NCBI GenBank assembly: GCA_009838765.1
Contig: VXQX01000040.1
Span: forward strand, 1 to 64,000
Origin: Gemmatimonadales bacterium
GTDB taxonomy: Bacteria > Gemmatimonadota > Gemmatimonadetes > Palauibacterales > Palauibacteraceae
Direction: 5' to 3'
DNA length: 64,000 nucleotides
How positions within the stretch are numbered: position 1 is the first letter of the stretch; every line of letters starts with the position of its first letter. The notes under the pieces are model-generated. The model searched no databases, was not told where the DNA came from, and worked only from the letters and a program-made list of their open reading frames with translations. This document shows positions 55,053 to 64,000 of this stretch, piece after piece. Both the position numbers and the translations under genes were made by a program.

Positions 55053-57418
55053 TGGCACCGAAGACTTCCGCCGACATCTGCGGCATGGGGCACTCCATGA
55101 AGCGCAAGGAGGACCCGCGCTTCCTGCAGGGCAAAGGCAACTACATCGACGACATCGTCCTCCCCGGCATGCTGTGGCTCGACATCGTCCGCAGCCCGAT
55201 CGCCTACGGGAAGATCAAGAGCATCGACTCGAGCAAGGCGCTGGAGGTGCCCGGCGTCCTCGCCGTCCTCACCGGCAAGGACCTCGAGGCGTACAACCTC
55301 CACTGGATGCCGACGCTCATGTCGGACACCCAGATGGTGCTCCCCACCGACACCGTCATGTACCAGGCGCAGGAGGTCGCGGCCGTCATCGCGACCTCAC
55401 GCTACGCGGCCGCCGACGGCGTGGCCGCCGTCGAGGTCGACTACGAGCCGATGAAGCCCGTCATCGACCCCTTCAAGGCGCTCGATGAGGACGCGCCCGT
55501 CCTCCGCACCGACAAGGAGGGCCAGACCGACAACCGCATCTGGCACTGGGAGGCGGGCGACAAGGAGGCGACCGACAAGGTGTTCGAGGAGGCGGACGTC
55601 GTCGTGCGCGAGAGCATGCACGTGCCGCGCATCCACGTCGCCTCGATCGAGACCTGCGGCTGCGTGGCCGACTTCAACCCCGTCGAGGGCCATCTCACCG
55701 TCTACATGACGACGCAGGCCCCGCACGCGATCCGCACCGTGCTCGCGCTCGTGGCCGGACACGTCGGCCTCTCCGAGGAGAAGATCCGCGTCGTGTCGCC
55801 CGACATCGGGGGCGGCTTCGGCGGCAAGGTGCCGGTCTATCCCGGCTACGTGGTCGCGATCGCGGCCTCCGTCGTGCTGGGTAAGCCGGTCAAGTGGATC
55901 GAGGACCGGATGGAGAACCTCCAGGCCGACTCGTTTGCGCGCGACTACCACATGGACGCCGAACTCGCGGCCGACGCTGACGGGAAGATCCGCGGGCTCC
56001 GCATCAAGACGCTCGCGGACCACGGCTATTCGGACGCCCAGGCGGCGCCCTCCAAGTTCCCGGCGGGCCTCTTCTCCATCTGCACCGGCTCGTACGACAT
56101 GGAGCAGGCGTACGCCGAGGTGGACGCGGTCTACACGAACAAGCCGCCGGGCGGCGTCGCCTACCGCTGCTCCTTCCGCGTGACCGAGGCCGTGCACTGC
56201 ATGGAGCGCGTCGTGGACACGCTGGCCCACAAGATCGGCAAGGATCCGGCGCAACTGCGCGAGGAGAACTTCATCCCGAAGGAGGCCTTCCCCTACCAGT
56301 CGCCGCTGGGCTGGGAGTACGACAGCGGGGATTACCAGGCCGCGATGGACAAGGCGAAGGAGATGATCGGCTACGACGACCTGCGCCGCGAGCAGGCCGA
56401 GAAGCGCGCGCGCGGCGAGTTGATGGGGATCGGCGTGTGCAGCTTCACCGAGGTGCTCGGCGCGGGCCCATCCAAGGACTTCGACATCCTCGGCATCAAG
56501 ATGTTCGACTCCGCCGAGGTGCGCGTACACCCCACGGGCAAGGCGATCGCCCGCTTCGGCACGAAGTCGCAGGGCCAGGGCCACGAAACCACCTACGCGC
56601 AGATCATCGCCGAGGAACTCGGCCTCCCCGCCGCCCACGTACAGGTCGAGGAGGGCGACACCGACACCGCCCCGTACGGCCTGGGCACCTACGCCAGCCG
56701 CTCGACCCCGACCGCCGGGGCCGCGGGCGCGATGGCCGCGCGCCAGATCCGCGCCAAGGCCGCGAAGATCGCCGCCCACCTGATGGAGGTGAGCGAGGAG
56801 GACCTCGAGTGGGAGCCCGGCAAGTTCTCCGTGAAGGGCGCCCCGGACCGGTCCGTCACGATCCAGGACTGCGCCTTCGCCGCCTACACGAACCTGCCCG
56901 AGGGGATGGAGCCGGGGATGGAGGCGACGAACTACTACGACCCGCCCAACCTCACCTTCCCCTTCGGCACGTACATCTGCGTGGTGGACATCGACCGCGG
57001 CACGGGAGAGGTGACGGTGCGCCGCTTCGTGGCCATCGATGACTGCGGCAACATCATCAACCCCATGATCGTGCAGGGCCAGATCCACGGCGGCCTCACC
57101 CAGGGCATCGGCCCCGCGCTGTTCGAGGAGATCCCCTACGACGAGGACGGCAACAACCTCGCCGGCTCGTTCATGGACTACCTCGTCCCCACCTCCATGG
57201 AGACCCCGGCCTGGGAGACCGGCCACACGATCACCCCGTCACCCCACCACCCCCTCGGCGCCAAGGGCGTCGGCGAGTCCGCCACGGTGGGCGCGCCCCC
57301 GGCGATCGCGAACGCGGTGGTTGACGCGCTCGCGCACCTGGGCGTCACGCACCTCGACATCCCGATCACCCCCGACAAGGTGTGGGAGGTGCTGAACGAG
57401 AAGGGGGTCGCGGAGTAG
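55052..57418 (+). CDS. coxL: Aerobic CO dehydrogenase large subunit, form I
   Basis: A 788-residue molybdo-copper subunit: CO + H2O gives CO2 + 2H+ + 2e-. The active-site loop is A-Y-R-C-S-F-R at residues 370-376, with Cys373 as the copper ligand; AYxCSFR defines form I, true CO dehydrogenase, as opposed to AYRGAGR of form II. G-G-G-F-G-G-K, the Q-G-Q-G-H-E cofactor loop and G-V-G-E-S with the base-like Glu are also intact. The start overlaps coxS as TGATG. Length is close to known CoxL. coxD, coxE and coxF, often needed for copper insertion, are not in the window. Confidence 0.94.
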   Translation: MAPKTSADICGMGHSMKRKEDPRFLQGKGNYIDDIVLPGMLWLDIVRSPIAYGKIKSIDSSKALEVPGVLAVLTGKDLEAYNLHWMPTLMSDTQMVLPTDTVMYQAQEVAAVIATSRYAAADGVAAVEVDYEPMKPVIDPFKALDEDAPVLRTDKEGQTDNRIWHWEAGDKEATDKVFEEADVVVRESMHVPRIHVASIETCGCVADFNPVEGHLTVYMTTQAPHAIRTVLALVAGHVGLSEEKIRVVSPDIGGGFGGKVPVYPGYVVAIAASVVLGKPVKWIEDRMENLQADSFARDYHMDAELAADADGKIRGLRIKTLADHGYSDAQAAPSKFPAGLFSICTGSYDMEQAYAEVDAVYTNKPPGGVAYRCSFRVTEAVHCMERVVDTLAHKIGKDPAQLREENFIPKEAFPYQSPLGWEYDSGDYQAAMDKAKEMIGYDDLRREQAEKRARGELMGIGVCSFTEVLGAGPSKDFDILGIKMFDSAEVRVHPTGKAIARFGTKSQGQGHETTYAQIIAEELGLPAAHVQVEEGDTDTAPYGLGTYASRSTPTAGAAGAMAARQIRAKAAKIAAHLMEVSEEDLEWEPGKFSVKGAPDRSVTIQDCAFAAYTNLPEGMEPGMEATNYYDPPNLTFPFGTYICVVDIDRGTGEVTVRRFVAIDDCGNIINPMIVQGQIHGGLTQGIGPALFEEIPYDEDGNNLAGSFMDYLVPTSMETPAWETGHTITPSPHHPLGAKGVGESATVGAPPAIANAVVDALAHLGVTHLDIPITPDKVWEVLNEKGVAE

Positions 57419-57571
57419 AAACACCGCGCCGGCAACCGGTTGAGGATCCGTTGACGCCGGACGCCGCCGACCGACTGGGCATCGAGACGTGCAACACGTT
57501 CGAACTCACGCGCCGACTTGATTTCAGAACCCAGTGGCGACCGTCCACCGAAGGCCGCTGAACGGAAGCCG

Positions 57572-57910
57572 ATGAAGGCGGATCTCAGTCCGAGCGCGCA
57601 GGCAATCCTTCTCTTGACGGCACCTTTGCTCGCGGGTGGGCGCAGGCGTTCCAAGAGACCGAAGACCGGGGGGACACGCACCCCGCTCCCGAATCCGAAG
57701 CCGTTGAGCGCTGTCGAATACCGCGACTTCGCCCGCCAGCTACGAGCAGTCCAGCGGGAGCCCGCCGACCTGCTCGGTAGCGATTCGACCGAGACGTTGT
57801 GCGCGTCGGGCACCAACCTGGACGGGGATAGAATTCGACGACTCCTCGGGCGCGGGTTTCTCCTTGCGCAGGCAATCGAGGGTTGGCGGGCCCGCGCTCT
57901 TCCCGCGGGA
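57572..57910 (+). pseudogene. 5' fragment of a DprA-like gene
   Basis: A frame from 57572 reads L-S-P-S-A-Q-A-I-L-L-L-T-A-P-L-L-A, K-P-L-S-A-V-E-Y-R-D-F-A-R-Q-L-R, P-A-D-L-L, L-D-G-D-R-I-R-R-L-L-G-R-G-F-L-L-A-Q-A-I-E-G-W-R-A-R. This is the N-terminal domain of large DprA-like proteins found in defence regions. It breaks off just where the Rossmann-like DprA core should begin, and what follows in any frame is unrelated. The frame runs on to 58801, antisense to the NTPase gene, but that part is not coding-like. It is probably a deletion remnant. Confidence 0.55.
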
Positions 57911-58002
57911 CAATCGGCGAGAGACAGCCAAAAACGGTCTCCTGCTCCATCCGCACTCAGATCCCCGCCCGGGCTCGTTGCATCGTGGCTGAGCGTTGTA
58001 CC

Positions 58003-60474
58003 CTATTCGTCCGGTCGGATCGCTCGGTACCCACTGCCCCTCTTCTTGATCATTTCGATCACGTCGTCGGCGATCCGCGAGACCTCCTCGGGCACCCGCA
58101 TGGGCCGTCCGCAGAGCTTGCGGAGCGCCGCGAGGAGCGGCAGCAATGCGTCTGAGTTCTCGGCGGCGCGGGCGACCTCATCGGCCAACGGTCCGGGCGG
58201 CGCGCCAAGGGCCAACAAATCCATCGTCTCCCAAACGAACTTGGGTAGCATCCCAGCGATCTCCTCATCGAACTCGCTGCAGATTGTTCCGAAAACGAGA
58301 AGAGCGGCCCGCTCGTCACCCCGCAGCTGGTGCGCAATCACCTCGACTCCCAGCGCTCGCCAACGCACCGGAACGCCGTCTCCATCTTCCAGCGCACCGA
58401 AGTCTCGGACGAGAGTTCGACATGTGGCGATCGCCTTGTCCGGAAGTCCCATGCGATTCTGGACGACAGCCTTCATCTCGAGAGCGTCCGCTACCTCTCG
58501 CAATACTCTCGAGTCCTCGCTGCCGCCGTACCGGTTCACGGCGGCGTCGCATTCCTGGACGGCTAGCCTGCCGTTGCCCTCGACGCTGGCGAGTGCCGCC
58601 TTCTTGACGAGCGCACCTGCTACCTGTTCTTGGACTTTCGGCGCCTCGTCGTCCATGAACCGCGTCGCGAGCTCATCCCAAACCACCCGTGCGGCGGGGT
58701 CGGGAGCCAGCACGGACCCCTTGTTGACTAGGGACATGGCCACGCACAACCGAAGCTCGGGCCGGTCGCTGTCGCCGAATAGGCGGACGGCCTCGTCGTA
58801 GGCGGCGACGGCCTCTTCAGGTTCTTCCATTTCACCGTGGAGGTGGCCCTTGTTCACGAGCGCAGCAGCGACGCACTCCCGCGCATCGGGCATCTGTAGA
58901 TCTGCAAACCTCCTCACAACTTCCGAGTATGCCTCCATGGCTTCCGGGAACTCGCCCAGCTGCTCTTTCGCCAAGCCGCGGTTCCTGTACGCCATCGCGA
59001 CCGCCGCCAGCTCCTCCGGGTCAGAGACGGACCCGAAACGCCGGATCACCTCGTCGCTGTATTCGACCGAGAGTGCGCACCGATCCGACTGTCCGAACCG
59101 AGATCCGATGTGGAGCAGCGCTCGAGCCACATAACGCCCCGCCCCTTCGCCGAAAGAGTCGAACGTGCTCTCGAGTTCCTCGTACGTCGCCGCAGCCATG
59201 CCCGGGCCGTATGGAGCCAAGTCTAGCTCCTCACCATCACCAAAGAACGCGTCGTGAAACGCCACATTGCCTAGGAGAGTACCTAGCATTGGTCCGGATT
59301 CATCGGGGCCGTAGAAGGTCACCATGAAGCGAATCACGCCGCGCACGACCGCCGCCTCGTCGCGTTGGTGTCTCAGCTTGTAGTAGATGCAGTAGAGGCC
59401 CTCGGAGACGCTGTACAGCCGGTTTCGTCCCCGGCCTTCGACCTTGATCGCGCCTCGCTTTCTCAGGCGGCCGAGAAAAGACGATACCTTCCGCACGTTC
59501 AGGCGCGCCCGGTCGGCGATCTCGCGCGTACTCGAGGGTCTCCACAGGTCGGCCGCGGCCAGGTACACCCGCCGTTCGGCCTTGGGCAGCGCATCCAAGT
59601 GTCCGCGGAAGTATTCGGTGTGGTCATCGATCAGCCCCACCATCTCTTCCATCAACTGGGGCGTGGACCGATGGCGACCGAACTCCGCAAGGATCACCAG
59701 CAGACGTGGACTCCCACCGGTGAAGATTTCGATCGGCCGCATCTGCAGGTCTTCCCGTTCCTCGCCGCTGACGACACGCCACAGACGACGGCACTCCGAC
59801 GTGCTCAGCGGATGCAACTGAACGATACGGAACAGCTCGAAGAACGGTTGCCCGGCATCCTCCAGCCCCTCGAAATGGCTCGTGGCGGAGCCCAGGAGGA
59901 TGATCTCAGGGTGCGACTGAAGAGACTCGCGAAGTTGCCACCCGAAGTCTTCGTCCACGTCATCGCAAAGGTCCTGCAGGTTCTCCACCATGAGCACCAG
60001 CCGCCTTCCGAGCTGGTCGGCGGCGTCGAGAACGCGGGCCCGCGCGGACGCGGCCACGTCCTCGCCGCGCCGTCCCGCGAGGTCGGCTCGCGTCGCAACG
60101 AGCTCCTCCGAGAGGTCGGCGTGATGTCGAGCACACTCCCGCGCCAGGTGGAACAGCGCCTCCAGCCAGAAGTCCTCGATGTTGAAGACCTCCAGGCTCT
60201 CCTCCATGAACCGCACGGGGAGCAACTTCTGGCTCAGATCCGGATCCGTTCGCAACTCGGCGGCGACGCGGGCGAGAAGCATCGTCTTGCCGCGGCCGCG
60301 GGGACCGACGACGAGCGTATGTTGGCATGAAGGTGCGTCGATATTCCCTCGGATCACGTCGAGGACTGTATCGAGTTCTCGATCCCGAACGACGAACTGC
60401 TCGATGATCTCCCCGTCGGACTGGAAGACCCCGGGGTTGAACTTGCGGATCGTGCGGGCCTGCGACTGGCTCAT
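58003..60474 (-). CDS. P-loop NTPase with winged helix and TPR-like repeats
   Basis: An 823-residue STAND-like ATPase. Walker A G-P-R-G-R-G-K-T at 57-64; a Walker B-like strand L-V-L-M-V-E-N-L near 160; a winged helix around 320-395 (S-T-R-E-I-A-D-R-A-R-L-N-V-R-K-V-S-S-F-L-G-R-L); then a helical C-terminal half with TPR-like units (A-M-A-Y-R-N-R-G-L-A-K-E-Q-L-G-E; A-L-V-N-K-G-H-L-H-G-E; A-M-S-L-V-N-K-G-S). NTPase + switch + repeat sensor is the plan of STAND defence and signalling proteins. The start at 60474 overlaps the upstream ATPase stop as ATGA. Its exact role is unknown. Confidence 0.75.
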   Translation of the reverse strand: MSQSQARTIRKFNPGVFQSDGEIIEQFVVRDRELDTVLDVIRGNIDAPSCQHTLVVGPRGRGKTMLLARVAAELRTDPDLSQKLLPVRFMEESLEVFNIEDFWLEALFHLARECARHHADLSEELVATRADLAGRRGEDVAASARARVLDAADQLGRRLVLMVENLQDLCDDVDEDFGWQLRESLQSHPEIILLGSATSHFEGLEDAGQPFFELFRIVQLHPLSTSECRRLWRVVSGEEREDLQMRPIEIFTGGSPRLLVILAEFGRHRSTPQLMEEMVGLIDDHTEYFRGHLDALPKAERRVYLAAADLWRPSSTREIADRARLNVRKVSSFLGRLRKRGAIKVEGRGRNRLYSVSEGLYCIYYKLRHQRDEAAVVRGVIRFMVTFYGPDESGPMLGTLLGNVAFHDAFFGDGEELDLAPYGPGMAAATYEELESTFDSFGEGAGRYVARALLHIGSRFGQSDRCALSVEYSDEVIRRFGSVSDPEELAAVAMAYRNRGLAKEQLGEFPEAMEAYSEVVRRFADLQMPDARECVAAALVNKGHLHGEMEEPEEAVAAYDEAVRLFGDSDRPELRLCVAMSLVNKGSVLAPDPAARVVWDELATRFMDDEAPKVQEQVAGALVKKAALASVEGNGRLAVQECDAAVNRYGGSEDSRVLREVADALEMKAVVQNRMGLPDKAIATCRTLVRDFGALEDGDGVPVRWRALGVEVIAHQLRGDERAALLVFGTICSEFDEEIAGMLPKFVWETMDLLALGAPPGPLADEVARAAENSDALLPLLAALRKLCGRPMRVPEEVSRIADDVIEMIKKRGSGYRAIRPDE

Positions 60475-61727
60475 TTCGGATCGGTCTCCGCAAGGGTGGC
60501 GCGTGATGCAACCGTCAGCGGGGTGTAGTGGCCGCGGAAGCGAGCCTTCCACCAGTCTCGAAGCAGGTGCGAGGCGAACCGGTAGCCCTCGGCATCGGAC
60601 TCCAAATAGCCATCGTGGACGAGGACATCCAAGGTCTCCACGACCTGCCGAGGGGCCCTGGACGGCAGCTTCGAGTACCGGGTCTCGAGATGCTGGCGGG
60701 CATCCGGCGTGAAGACACCTTGCACGGCCGCCTCCGCCAGAATCTCCATCGCGATCCCGTAACGGGTTTCGTCGCCCAAGCCATCTCTCAGGCGCGCTTC
60801 GTAGTGAGCGAGGTCGTTCTGTCCGGAGGGTCCAAGGAGTTCGGTGCGGTACACCGTATCCACGTCCTCCATCGTGATGCGCTGCCGATCATGTCTCAAA
60901 GCGTAATCGCGCAGGCGCGCGAAGAAGGACTGGACGTGCTGCGGGATACCGATCCCGAGGTGATCATATACCGCCTCCGCCACACCCTCGTCCACGACGA
61001 AGCCGCCGCTCGCGGCGAGTGCCTCGAAGCACGCTACCGATGTCTCACGATCCCACGGGCCAAGACGAAACGGATCCAAGTAGTTTATCCTGTCCGAGAT
61101 CCCCAGCCGCTGGACCAGGGGGGCGAGCCCGATGCTGCCGGAGACGACGAGGACCGGAGACGTGCCGGCCTGTTGCTGGAAGGCGGCCCTGAGCCAGCTG
61201 AGGAACACGTCCGCGCGGGCGGCGCCATTCTCCTGCCGCAGCAGCCTCGACAGGAAGATCGGCAATTCGTCCACGGCAAGGACGACGGGCTTGTCGAACG
61301 AAGCGCAGCGCCGGATGAGGTGGCGGCCGTGATGCCTCCAGTTGCCGGCGTCCAACACCGCCCGAAACTCCACGGCGAAGTCGCGGGCACCTATTTTCTT
61401 GACCCGCCGCCACAGCTCGGCCGAGCGACGCCCCACGATGTTCCATGCCCGTCGCGGAAGTGGCTGATACTGATGCACGGCTTCCGCAATCTTGGTGACC
61501 ACATCCTCCTCGGAGATGGCCCCCTCCACATCGGTCGGGAGGAAGATCCATCCGTCCTCCTCCAGCCGACGCCCCAGTTCTTGCAGGATGCTCGTCTTGC
61601 CCATTCGACGCTGGCCGGTCATCACGATGTGATTCCCGTCCCGGATTCGTGATTCGAGAATGCTCAGTTCCTCGTCTCGGTTGAAGAAATCGTCGCCGCT
61701 CACCCAGCGGCCGGTGGATGATCTCAC
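60471..61727 (-). CDS. Archaeal-ATPase-like P-loop NTPase
   Basis: A 418-residue AAA-type ATPase. Walker A G-Q-R-R-M-G-K-T at 38-45, preceded by F-N-R-D-E-E-L as in the archaeal ATPase (PF01637-like) group; Walker B K-P-V-V-L-A-V-D-E-L-P near 150; a sensor-like V-V-S-G-S-I-G-L; then a winged helix and the C-terminal F-A-S-H-L-L-R-D-W-W-K-A-R-F. The GTG at 61727 has CGGAG upstream. It is translationally coupled to the repeat NTPase, so the two likely act as one system. A defence role is inferred from company (DprA remnant, HsdM) only. Confidence 0.75.
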   Translation of the reverse strand: MRSSTGRWVSGDDFFNRDEELSILESRIRDGNHIVMTGQRRMGKTSILQELGRRLEEDGWIFLPTDVEGAISEEDVVTKIAEAVHQYQPLPRRAWNIVGRRSAELWRRVKKIGARDFAVEFRAVLDAGNWRHHGRHLIRRCASFDKPVVLAVDELPIFLSRLLRQENGAARADVFLSWLRAAFQQQAGTSPVLVVSGSIGLAPLVQRLGISDRINYLDPFRLGPWDRETSVACFEALAASGGFVVDEGVAEAVYDHLGIGIPQHVQSFFARLRDYALRHDRQRITMEDVDTVYRTELLGPSGQNDLAHYEARLRDGLGDETRYGIAMEILAEAAVQGVFTPDARQHLETRYSKLPSRAPRQVVETLDVLVHDGYLESDAEGYRFASHLLRDWWKARFRGHYTPLTVASRATLAETDPK

Positions 61728-61814
61728 GCAGTGCTCCGTTCTGGTGCAGGTGTGCAGGTGTCAGGCCGACAGGCCCGTGATCGCCAGTCGCGCACGGGGT
61801 TCTCTCGGAGTTTA

Positions 61815-61851
61815 GTTGTCAACAGATTTGTTGTCAACAATTCCGTTGACG
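61815..61851. repeat. 15-base iteron-like repeats, left copy
   Basis: GTTGTCAACAGATTT, GTTGTCAACAATTCC and GTTGACG start exactly 15 bases apart (61815, 61830, 61845). The centre contains TTGTTG-T-CAACAA, a near-perfect dyad. The same 33-base block recurs at 62217-62249, on the other side of the DUF2283 gene. Bases 61728-61937 hold nothing else. Confidence 0.75.
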
Positions 61852-61937
61852 AAGACGAGGCTTGTGTTGGGACGCTTGACGGCAGCGAGGCCAACCACAA
61901 CGCTTTCTTCGATCGCGGCTTCAGAAGAAGGGGCACG

Positions 61938-62141
61938 ATGAGACTGCACTACTACCCTGAAACCGACAGCCTCTATATCGAGTTCCATGAGGGTCCGGGC
62001 ACCGAGACGCGTAAGGTCGCCGACGGGGTCCGGGTCGACCTGGATGCCCGAGGCCACATCGTCGGATTCGACATCGATGACGCCTCGATCCGCGTGGATC
62101 TCTCCACGCTGGAAGCCAAGGCTCTGCCGCTGCGTTCCTGA
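61938..62141 (+). CDS. DUF2283 small protein
   Basis: A 67-residue DUF2283 protein: M-R-L-H-Y-Y-P-E-T-D-S-L-Y-I-E-F, then V-A-D-G-V-R-V-D-L-D-A-R-G-H-I-V-G-F-D-I-D-D-A-S. AGAAGAAGGGG lies before the ATG. The family is a compact beta fold, frequently next to DUF4258 or toxin-like genes and suspected to be an antitoxin or regulator; no partner is intact here. It is bracketed by the two repeat blocks. Confidence 0.85.
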   Translation: MRLHYYPETDSLYIEFHEGPGTETRKVADGVRVDLDARGHIVGFDIDDASIRVDLSTLEAKALPLRS

Positions 62142-62216
62142 CGCATCACGCGACGTGCGCCAGTGGAGTCACGCGGGCGGGTCTCCGACAAAGCGCCGGA
62201 TCGGTGTGTGCGTCCG

Positions 62217-62249
62217 CCAACAGATCTGTTGTCAACGATTTCGTTGACG
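62217..62249. repeat. 15-base iteron-like repeats, right copy
   Basis: Second copy of the block at 61819-61851, in the same orientation, differing at only a few positions: CCAACAGATCT, GTTGTCAACGATTTC, GTTGACG. It contains the perfect palindrome CAACAGATCTGTTG. The copies are 398 bases apart. Confidence 0.75.
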
Positions 62250-62551
62250 CGATGCGGGGACACCGCTATCACCTTCGATCTCATCCAGCGAAGGGGCGAT
62301 TCAAGAAAATTGACGTCATCCCCTCGGTATGGTAGCATGGTGGCTACTTGCTCCCCGCCCGACCCGCCGAAAGGCCTCGGACGGGGTTATTGCTTTAAAC
62401 CAGCCCATGACCCGCCAGCCGGAACCGCAGAGGAATCAACAAGACCGATTGGATTCCGATCGACCGTGAACTCTACGACCGGTGCCTTGACGGCCGGGAC
62501 TACCGCGGGAGCCCCTGATCGGGCGCTGACCTTCCCCAAGCTCCGGCTGGG
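62250..62551. other. Gene-free stretch after the right repeat
   Basis: No convincing gene on either strand. Frames are short, change strand bias and lack ribosome sites. The part near 62400 is less GC-rich than its surroundings. It lies beyond the 3' end of the hsdM remnant, where hsdS or hsdR would be expected, and neither is present. Confidence 0.5.
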
Positions 62552-64000
62552 TCAGGACTCGGAGCCGTAGGGGATCCGCGCCACCTCCCGCAGCATCTCC
62601 ACGATCTCGGCCCCGATTGCCCCGATATCGGCCTCGATCTCCTCGAGCGGGCGGGGCGGCTTGAAGCGGTAGAAGTAGCGGTTGAAGTTGATCTCGTATC
62701 CCACGAGACCGACCTCGCCGTCGCGGCGGTCGCACTTCGTCGTGTCGATCCAGGCGTCGTCCGCGTGCGGCTTGACCTCTCGCTCGAAGAACTTTCGCAC
62801 GCTTTCCGGGACTCCGTCGTCGTCCACAGGGTCGTCGCCGTCGGGCAACGGCACGCGCTCGGTGTCCCGCAGTTCCGGATCGGGCTCGGGATGGCCGCGG
62901 GGGTCGCGGCAGATCTCCGCCGTCTCGTCTCGTTCCGAAAGCGCCTTGAGGACGGCCTTCCGCAAGGGAGCCCGTAGCTTGATTCCCGCCTTCTCCATGG
63001 CGGCATCCAGTTCGGCGGCGAACGCATCGCGATCCTTGGAGAGATCGTCCGGCATCGACTCGAGCGCCCTCTTGATCGCTGTCTGTAGAGCCCGGCCCTC
63101 CTCCTTCTCGCGCTCCCCGGCCTCACCCGTTTCCGCGACTTGGCCAGGTTCGCGAACGCCGTCTGCTCGTCCAGCCGTGCGATGCGCTCCTCGCTCGCCC
63201 GGAAGTTGAGTCGCAGTGGACATTCCACAGTGATCTTCCGGAACCCGAACCGGGTCGTGGGGAACACGCGACTGACCGGCACGTTCTCTTCGCTGTCGTC
63301 GCCGGCCACGGGGCAGGTCTCGCCATCCCGGAAGCCCCGGAGGAGCGCCAGGATGTCGGCCGCCTTCTCCGCCGGAATGTCGCGCCGCTTGTCGCCGAGG
63401 CTCTTCTTGCGCGGCGCCCAGAAGGAGGTGGCGTCGATGAGTTGGACCTTGCCCGCCCGCTCCGGCGCCTTGCGGTTGGTGAGGAGCCAGATGTAGGTGC
63501 CGATGCCGGTGTTGTAGAAGAGTTGTTCCGGGAGCGCAATCAGCGCCTCGAGCAGGTCGTTCTCCAGGATGTGGCGGCGGACCTCGCTCTCGCCGCTCCC
63601 CGCGTCGCCGGTGAAGAGCGGCGACCCGTTCATGATGATCGCGATCCGTGTCCCGCCCTCCTCCGGTGTCCTCGCGCGCGCGAGCATGTGAAGAAGGAAG
63701 AGCGTCTGCCCATCGCTGATCCTCGGGAGCCCGGGACCGAAGCGGCCCGCCGCCCCGCGTTCGTGTTCGGCCTTGACCGCGTCCTTGTCCCGCTTCCAGT
63801 CCTTCCCGTACGGCGGATTGGCGATCAGGTAGTCGAAGCGCCGATCGGCGTGCCTGTCGTTAGAGAGCACGCTGCCGAAGGCGATGTTGCTCGCGTCGTG
63901 ACCCGTCGGATCCTTCATGAAGAAGTCCGACTTCGACACCGCCCACGTCTCGGGGTTCACCTCCTGCCCGAACAGGTGGATGTCCGCGTCGCGGTTGATC
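62552..64000 (-). pseudogene. hsdM: Type I restriction-modification M subunit, frameshifted, partial
   Basis: Adenine methyltransferase subunit entering from the right edge. The first part (64000 to about 63135) includes the catalytic motif N-P-P-Y-G, I-M-N-G-S-P-L-F-T-G-D-A-G-S-G-E-S, L-P-E-Q-L-F-Y-N-T-G-I-G-T-Y-I-W and L-T-N-R. Near 63130-63132 (AAA on the coding strand) the frame breaks; the rest, K-E-E-G-R-A-L-Q-T-A-I-K-R-A-L to F-N-R-Y-F-Y-R-F-K-P-P-R-P-L-E-E-I-E and the stop at 62552, is in the -1 frame. One extra A would restore a full gene. Either the gene is broken or one base was miscalled. The N-terminus is outside the window. Confidence 0.8.

Follow-up and report, generated by a model that had tools for sequence, protein, structure and literature searches.

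A mobile pair of ATPase genes with a STAND-like partner and an operator-like tandem palindrome in a Gemmatimonadales bacterium

Bacterial STAND proteins (signal transduction ATPases with numerous domains) are the prokaryotic counterparts of the NLR (nucleotide-binding, leucine-rich repeat) immune receptors, and where their activity is known, the effector is usually part of the same polypeptide. Their plan comprises a nucleotide-binding oligomerization domain composed of nucleotide-binding domain (NBD), helical domain (HD) and winged-helix domain (WHD), followed by an arm and a repeat sensor, with an effector at one end and a GxP motif (PMC6468293). PH0952 (6mfv), the closest solved STAND to the protein considered here, has been predicted to be a transcription factor (PMC6468293). 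Here, we describe a two-gene locus of Gemmatimonadales bacterium (assembly GCA_009838765.1) whose downstream gene, P2, encodes a protein with all features of this plan except the effector, and whose upstream gene, P1, encodes a second ATPase. The window, i.e. the whole stretch of DNA analysed, comprises positions 1 to 64,000 of contig VXQX01000040.1; this contig measures 87.7 kb and the draft genome 3.6 Mb. Labels of the type L101 denote loci of relatives, labels of the type G292 Gemmatimonadota genomes; the named relatives are for the most part Gemmatimonadota metagenome-assembled genomes (MAGs). It is almost certain that P1 and P2 form a genuine unit of two genes and that this unit is mobile. 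Searches of the open-access literature for paired STANDs, two-gene systems of AAA+ and TPR proteins and iteron-like operators returned no description of the pair, which is weak evidence of its novelty.

P1 and P2 are two intact, co-directional open reading frames (ORFs) on the minus strand, preceded by a palindromic element:

60471-61727, minus strand: P1, AAA+ ATPase of 418 amino acids (aa), archaeal ATPase_2/SSO1545 type, with a C-terminal winged helix
58003-60474, minus strand: P2, STAND-like protein of 823 aa, ATG start
60471-60474, minus strand: ATGA shared by the stop codon of P1 and the start codon of P2 (translational coupling), kept in many relatives
61815-61850, no strand: operator-like tandem palindrome GTTGTCAACAGATTTGTTGTCAACAATTCCGTTGAC, 88-123 bp upstream of P1

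P1 starts with GTG, which is conserved among its homologues. For P2, a mechanical ORF list gave a frame of 849 aa that begins at an upstream GTG; it was rejected, since the homologues begin at the ATG that yields 823 aa.

The AlphaFold model of P2 (predicted local distance difference test, pLDDT, 82) displays the order NBD, helical domain, winged helix, arm and solenoid of tetratricopeptide repeats (TPRs):

P2 residues ~20-235: NBD with Walker A GPRGRGKT and Walker B LVLMVENL
P2 residues 240-294: helical domain with the GxP motif TGGSPR
P2 residues ~298-370: winged helix
P2 residues ~373-480: arm
P2 residues ~486-692: TPR array; C-terminal helices reach residue 819

Among the PDB structures, Foldseek matches P2 best to PH0952, Cdc6/Orc1, Avs3 with phage terminase, Apaf-1 and EfAvs5. 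Pfam finds AAA_16 (2.7e-10), TPRs (2e-12) and a weak TrmB/MarR-like winged helix-turn-helix. The AAA+ NBD with helical domain and winged helix is thus seen by model, Foldseek and Pfam; the GxP motif, which reads GGxPR with P and R kept in nearly all family members, and a repeat sensor after the arm are also present. However, a STAND should have two acidic Walker B residues, and P2 lacks the second one: its Walker B is hhhh[E/D]N across the family, with DS in one member. Therefore, membership is claimed as STAND-like. In AAA+ proteins, absence of the second acidic Walker B residue should impair hydrolysis. P2 is, hence, predicted to bind ATP and should hydrolyse it poorly.

The two halves of P2 evolve at different rates: mean identity is 62% for residues 1-392 vs 34% for residues 393-823, and the C-terminus varies among relatives in length and repeat number. 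Such a fast C-terminus with varying repeats is the pattern expected of a sensor under turnover. In Thiococcus pfennigii, P2 contains 9.6 near-identical 129-bp TPR repeats with 87% match (L068, 12748-13987), suggesting a recent expansion of sensor repeats. An effector fused to the variable C-terminus was considered and rejected, as Pfam scans of 20 relatives returned essentially TPRs or nothing.

In P1, both Walker motifs are canonical (Walker A GQRRMGKTS, Walker B AVDELP), and the acidic pair DE of the Walker B motif hhhhDE is found in every family member aligned. Pfam matches to AAA_16 (E 9e-7) and ATPase_2 (8e-5) are below gathering. The structure model is weaker than that of P2 (pLDDT 74, predicted template modelling score 0.53). 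Profile (about 1e-8) and fold comparisons point to the archaeal Walker ATPases 2qen and 2fna and then to Cdc6/Orc1. When the single proteins were used for sequence searches of the PDB, P1 had no match and P2 one weak TPR match only. Neither in P1 nor in P2 was a nuclease or membrane effector domain recognised. An earlier reading made from the letters of the window alone (the sequence-only reading) had proposed NTPases coupled by a four-base overlap, the second of them STAND-like with winged helix and TPRs, and neither with a nuclease or membrane effector; it is borne out on all of these points.

Relatives were gathered from 298 Gemmatimonadota genomes, GTDB contigs, Pseudomonadota genomes and plasmids. 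In about 32 independent relatives from five or more phyla, the order P1 then P2 is kept, and the junction is mostly a 4-bp or short overlap. The GTDB contigs contributed members from Gemmatimonadota, Gammaproteobacteria including T. pfennigii, a Boseongicola MAG, Binatia, Acidobacteria and Aminicenantes. All P1 relatives of at least 120 bits have P2 next on the same strand, with the sole exception of a P1 copy without P2 on a Methylomonas plasmid (L103). The P1-like proteins L128-L131, which score less than about 61 bits, are not followed by P2; they were excluded and define the boundary of the family. P1 and the N-terminal domain of P2 co-diverge (identities, Mantel r = 0.988, 0/2000 permutations). 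The sequence-only reading had named a mostly separate occurrence of the two genes as its refutation. This clearly does not apply to P1, which apart from the Methylomonas copy is always found with P2, whereas P2 also occurs without P1. At several loci P1 is lost or broken, and its debris is visible near P2 at L089 and L095.

The pair is rare: P1 was found in 6 of 299 Pseudomonadota genomes (E <= 1e-30), P2 in 8 of 247 Acidobacteriota genomes (E <= 1e-40), and of 72,556 plasmids searched, just a few carry a member. Neither the 12 other genus-level genomes listed nor the sampled family-level genomes contain a relative of P1 or P2, and relatives of 56-66% identity are found in another family. Therefore, the pair of the window was probably acquired laterally. 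A constant third gene beside the pair was not found; the recurring Rpn, DUF2283 and Phd neighbours are confined to some Gemmatimonadota loci.

The tandem palindrome upstream of P1 was first noticed while insertion junctions were read. Positions 61820-61848 match the 29-bp pattern CAAC-N6-GTTG-N-CAAC-N6-GTTG exactly (16/16), and 16/16 was never reached in shuffled upstream regions. A second copy is located at 62218-62246 (no strand), beyond the DUF2283 gene (see below). These two are the only sites in this genome, even at 2 mismatches, and both lie in the island that harbours the pair, so that a palindrome regulon in this genome was rejected. In essentially all close relatives from Gemmatimonadota, Gammaproteobacteria, Acidobacteria and Aminicenantes, the palindrome precedes P1 at about -40 to -140, and in most of the loci that have P2 only, it is found at about -47 before P2. 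Within Gemmatimonadota, 18 of 20 genomes with a substantial P2 contain the exact pattern vs 7 of 278 without P2 (Fisher 3e-21; counts tallied by hand from searches of the 298 genomes). A backward control pattern had zero matches in the same 298 genomes. Acidobacteriota served as an independent sample: here, four of seven palindrome sites are followed by P2 at a distance that equals the length of a P1 gene (1315-1372 bp).

Distant pairs do not have the CAAC/GTTG sequence. Instead, other tandem palindromes with a 14-17-bp period are located before P1 (L101, L120, L121, L124, L126 and others), and they are significant against three controls (p = 2e-6 to 2e-7). A palindrome that varies with the protein family while its position and build remain constant is what an autoregulatory site should look like. 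Judged from these patterns, it is likely that the pair binds its own promoter. Of the two proteins, P2 is the favoured candidate binder, because loci with P2 only retain the palindrome. The idea of the sequence-only reading that the winged helices might act on DNA thus gains a conserved, putatively cognate operator.

Palindromes also occur away from an intact pair (L182 at 4292, L184 at 4319, L187 at 4387, L188 at 4643, L189 at 4335 and L191 at 4153). Their neighbours encode an Rpn-like nuclease, DprA-like, TIGR04255-like, DUF4258/DUF2283 or toxin-antitoxin (TA) proteins and P2 remnants, several of these named by eye, and their central base is often G/C, not A/T. These orphan palindromes may be relics, shared operators or insertion sites.

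The pair resides on a foreign island, the features of which are as follows:

57420-64000, continuing to ~65,705 in the contig, no strand: foreign island of 8.3 kb, GC content 0.64 vs 0.69 in the flanks
57584-57901, plus strand: DprA-like gene remnant, N-terminal part, 44-51% identical to DprA-like frames in L096 and L187
61872-61937, plus strand: last ~20 codons of an apparently truncated DUF4258-type gene, assigned by eye (compare L191, 4490-4735)
61938-62141, plus strand: DUF2283 gene, 67 aa, divergent from P1 (Pfam E 4e-15)
62552-64000, continuing to 64716 in the contig, minus strand: frameshifted hsdM, type I methyltransferase (PADLOC MTase_I)

In two members of the same genus (L150, L152), only 24-39 bp separate window position 57,418 from contig position ~65,710. 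These are empty sites, and the 8.3 kb are, therefore, an insertion. It is located downstream of a gene for a large subunit that resembles CO/xanthine dehydrogenase (enzyme name read from the sequence). Elsewhere, the corresponding site contains DUF2283 with small genes (G292), a DUF4258/DUF2283 pair (G162) or a HigBA-like pair (G602). The site (loci L150-L154 and L191) is an insertion hotspot whose occupants vary: it is empty or holds DUF2283, DUF4258/DUF2283, a HigBA-like TA pair or the P1/P2 island. DUF2283 is found near the pair at 6 of 31 loci vs 0 of 18 control loci. The hsdM frameshift lies at ~63.1-63.2 kb, and the PADLOC MTase_I model is matched from 244 to 504 in one frame and from 500 to 660 in another. 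Since one model is split over two frames, hsdM is a broken, nearly full-length gene and not a short fragment. No hsdS or hsdR was called beside it. Among the neighbours proposed by the sequence-only reading, the DUF2283 gene and the DprA-like remnant are real, and the HsdM remnant is indeed broken but, as stated, far from short. The contrast drawn there between an intact pair and decaying neighbours is right only in part: the whole 8.3-kb block is a recent hotspot insertion, and in several relatives decay has reached P1 as well.

PADLOC has no model for P1 or P2 and returns weak, mostly P-loop-level matches (E >= 5e-4). The 118 nearest neighbours of chromosomal relatives matched 221 PADLOC families (E <= 1e-10) vs 8 for 118 control proteins from mostly the same genomes, although 221 is inflated by redundant HsdS, HsdM and reverse transcriptase models. 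Therefore, individual loci were checked. Type I restriction-modification genes lie beside L065 and L069, PDC-S68 at L089 and a SIR2 protein at L117. At L080 (4318-7803), a DRT reverse transcriptase (RT_UG21) and a SAP-domain gene are found just upstream of the pair. At L127 (12543-19001), a Ppl-like gene and further genes directly follow a divergent pair and are possibly part of a larger defence operon. On plasmids, Qat, an N6-methyltransferase and a dGTPase surround the pair of Moraxella, while P2 of Sphingobium lies beside Pycsar, AbiE and a TIR/E1-E2/Mov34 cluster. P2 of Agrobacterium is adjoined by cyclase and ThiF genes and P1 of Methylomonas by HsdR-like and Abi-like ORFs (by eye). By guilt by association, a role of the pair in conflict or defence appears likely, in line with the setting suggested by the sequence-only reading.

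Two further groups of genes were observed near the pair. On the Moraxella osloensis plasmid (L107, 7122-15681), uncharacterised genes of 1248 and 1586 aa directly follow it, the first without a Pfam match. A conserved protein of ~734 aa, GHKL-like by eye, is encoded near pairs at L063 (6452-8656) and L064 (2077-4278) and near an orphan palindrome at L188 (6344-8545). The L063 copy has no Pfam or PADLOC match.

Taken together, we favour, with somewhat better than even confidence, the view that the pair is a mobile, autoregulated two-component STAND/ORC-like sensor of defence islands in which P1 supplies the output. P2 would be sensor and switch: the ligand detected by its variable TPR arm would most plausibly come from an invading element as one of its products, and P2, with Asn as second Walker B residue, would change its state by ATP binding. 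P1, whose Walker B is complete, would act as the obligate partner ATPase: once P2 is activated, P1 would load onto it or be recruited by it and perform the hydrolysis or output step missing from P2. Output is assigned to P1 because P2 has no effector domain. At rest, one winged helix, preferably that of P2, would occupy the tandem palindrome before the operon and hold or tune expression. That P2 binds DNA, that the TPRs act as sensor, that the effector step runs through P1 and that the pair is directed against invaders is what we infer from the arrangement described above. Several observations speak against this proposal. P2 is found without P1 (L092-L100, L104, L105), so that P1 is not strictly required. 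Searches with both profiles revealed no copies in phage records or viral contigs. Pfam recognises no effector domain at either end of P2, whose NBD already starts at about residue 20, and the same applies to most relatives. Furthermore, many other loci have ordinary neighbours, so that defence genes are an enrichment and not a rule. Finally, in some genomes without the pair, the palindrome precedes DUF2283, HigBA, Rpn nuclease or DprA-like modules, and another factor could bind it.

An alternative, to which we assign a minor chance, is a class of two-protein immune receptors: hydrolysis-impaired P2 and active P1 would assemble on, or leave, a co-evolving palindromic array, and the DNA-bound AAA+ assembly itself would be the immune output, without nuclease, membrane or NADase effector. 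It is unlikely that the pair is a regulator like MalT or PH0952, which would control ordinary metabolism in an ATP-gated manner via its winged helices and be located in defence islands incidentally. The prediction for PH0952 as a transcription factor (PMC6468293) and the conserved operator-like element agree with such a regulator. However, in its own genome the palindrome is restricted to the pair's island, no constant neighbour gene is there to be regulated, and patchy presence, plasmid carriage and hotspot insertion are ill-suited to this role. An addiction or TA-like module, in which one of the two proteins is toxic and kept in check by the other, and both as a complex repress their own promoter through the palindrome, appears quite unlikely: P1 and P2 are both large ATPases without known toxin fold, loss or breakage of P1 with persistence of P2 at several loci and absence of P2 at L103 are hard to reconcile with simple addiction, and the variable TPR sensor points to ligand sensing. 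The two overlapping genes, the autoregulatory-type palindromes, the mobile contexts and the niches shared with TA genes (Phd, HigBA, DUF4258/DUF2283, AbiE) speak for such a module.

It is also quite unlikely that the palindrome is an insertion or recombination hotspot or an unrelated host-factor site that receives accessory modules and not the operator of the pair. This would account for its position next to DUF2283, HigBA and Rpn modules where the pair is missing and on both sides of DUF2283 in the window. Yet in unrelated phyla it keeps to about -30 to -140 relative to the first codon, and it lies ~-47 before P2 when P1 is gone; both argue against a hotspot, and the differing, similarly built palindromes at the matching place before distant pairs fit protein-operator co-evolution, not one fixed site. 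A partition- or origin-like DNA-maintenance module (iteron array, AAA+ ATPase and DNA-binding ATPase) left by a plasmid or integrative element is highly improbable: the Orc1/Cdc6 folds matched by P1 and P2 and the iteron-like 15-17-bp palindrome arrays directly upstream recall one, but the pair occurs mostly as a single chromosomal copy with no genes for relaxase, integrase or replication nearby, is present on just a handful of plasmids, and its variable TPR sensor is left unexplained.

If the sensor proposal with P1 as output is correct, a two-gene form that splits a sensor with degenerate Walker B from an active partner ATPase would represent a different wiring of the STAND switch, and the DNA operator kept by the pair across phyla would be part of it. 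Testable objects are at hand, namely the 29-bp element and the isolate-borne pair of T. pfennigii. In addition, the palindrome can be used as a search key for relics and companions of the system.

How does the pair compare with known systems? With the STAND-TPR proteins of the PH0952, MalT and APAF1 clades, P2 shares an NBD-HD with GxP, WHD, arm and TPR sensor in the same order, and PH0952 is its top structural match. In contrast, P2 has no effector domain, its Walker B ends with Asn, and it is encoded with a second AAA+ ATPase and its own tandem palindrome. Avs and bacterial NLR-type STANDs like Avs3 and EfAvs5 resemble P2 in STAND core and repeat sensor (matches to 8dgc and 9jap) and in the defence-island setting, whereas P2 lacks an N-terminal nuclease, SIR2 or protease domain as well as a convincing PADLOC match and belongs to a two-protein design. 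The Orc1/Cdc6 initiators have AAA+ and winged helix in common with both P1 and P2 (2qby, 2v1u and ORC4 are among the top matches), and the repeated palindromes upstream of the pair recall origin repeats; differences are the TPR sensor and degenerate Walker B of P2, the lack of an origin context and the patchy, mobile distribution. The archaeal ATPase_2 or SSO1545-PAB2304 ATPases (2fna, 2qen), for which we know of no assigned function, match P1 by profile and fold, but P1 is tied to a downstream P2. From toxin-antitoxin systems the pair departs in having no toxin fold and in the persistence of P2 without P1. We file it as a variant of the STAND kind that is a member of no named defence system.

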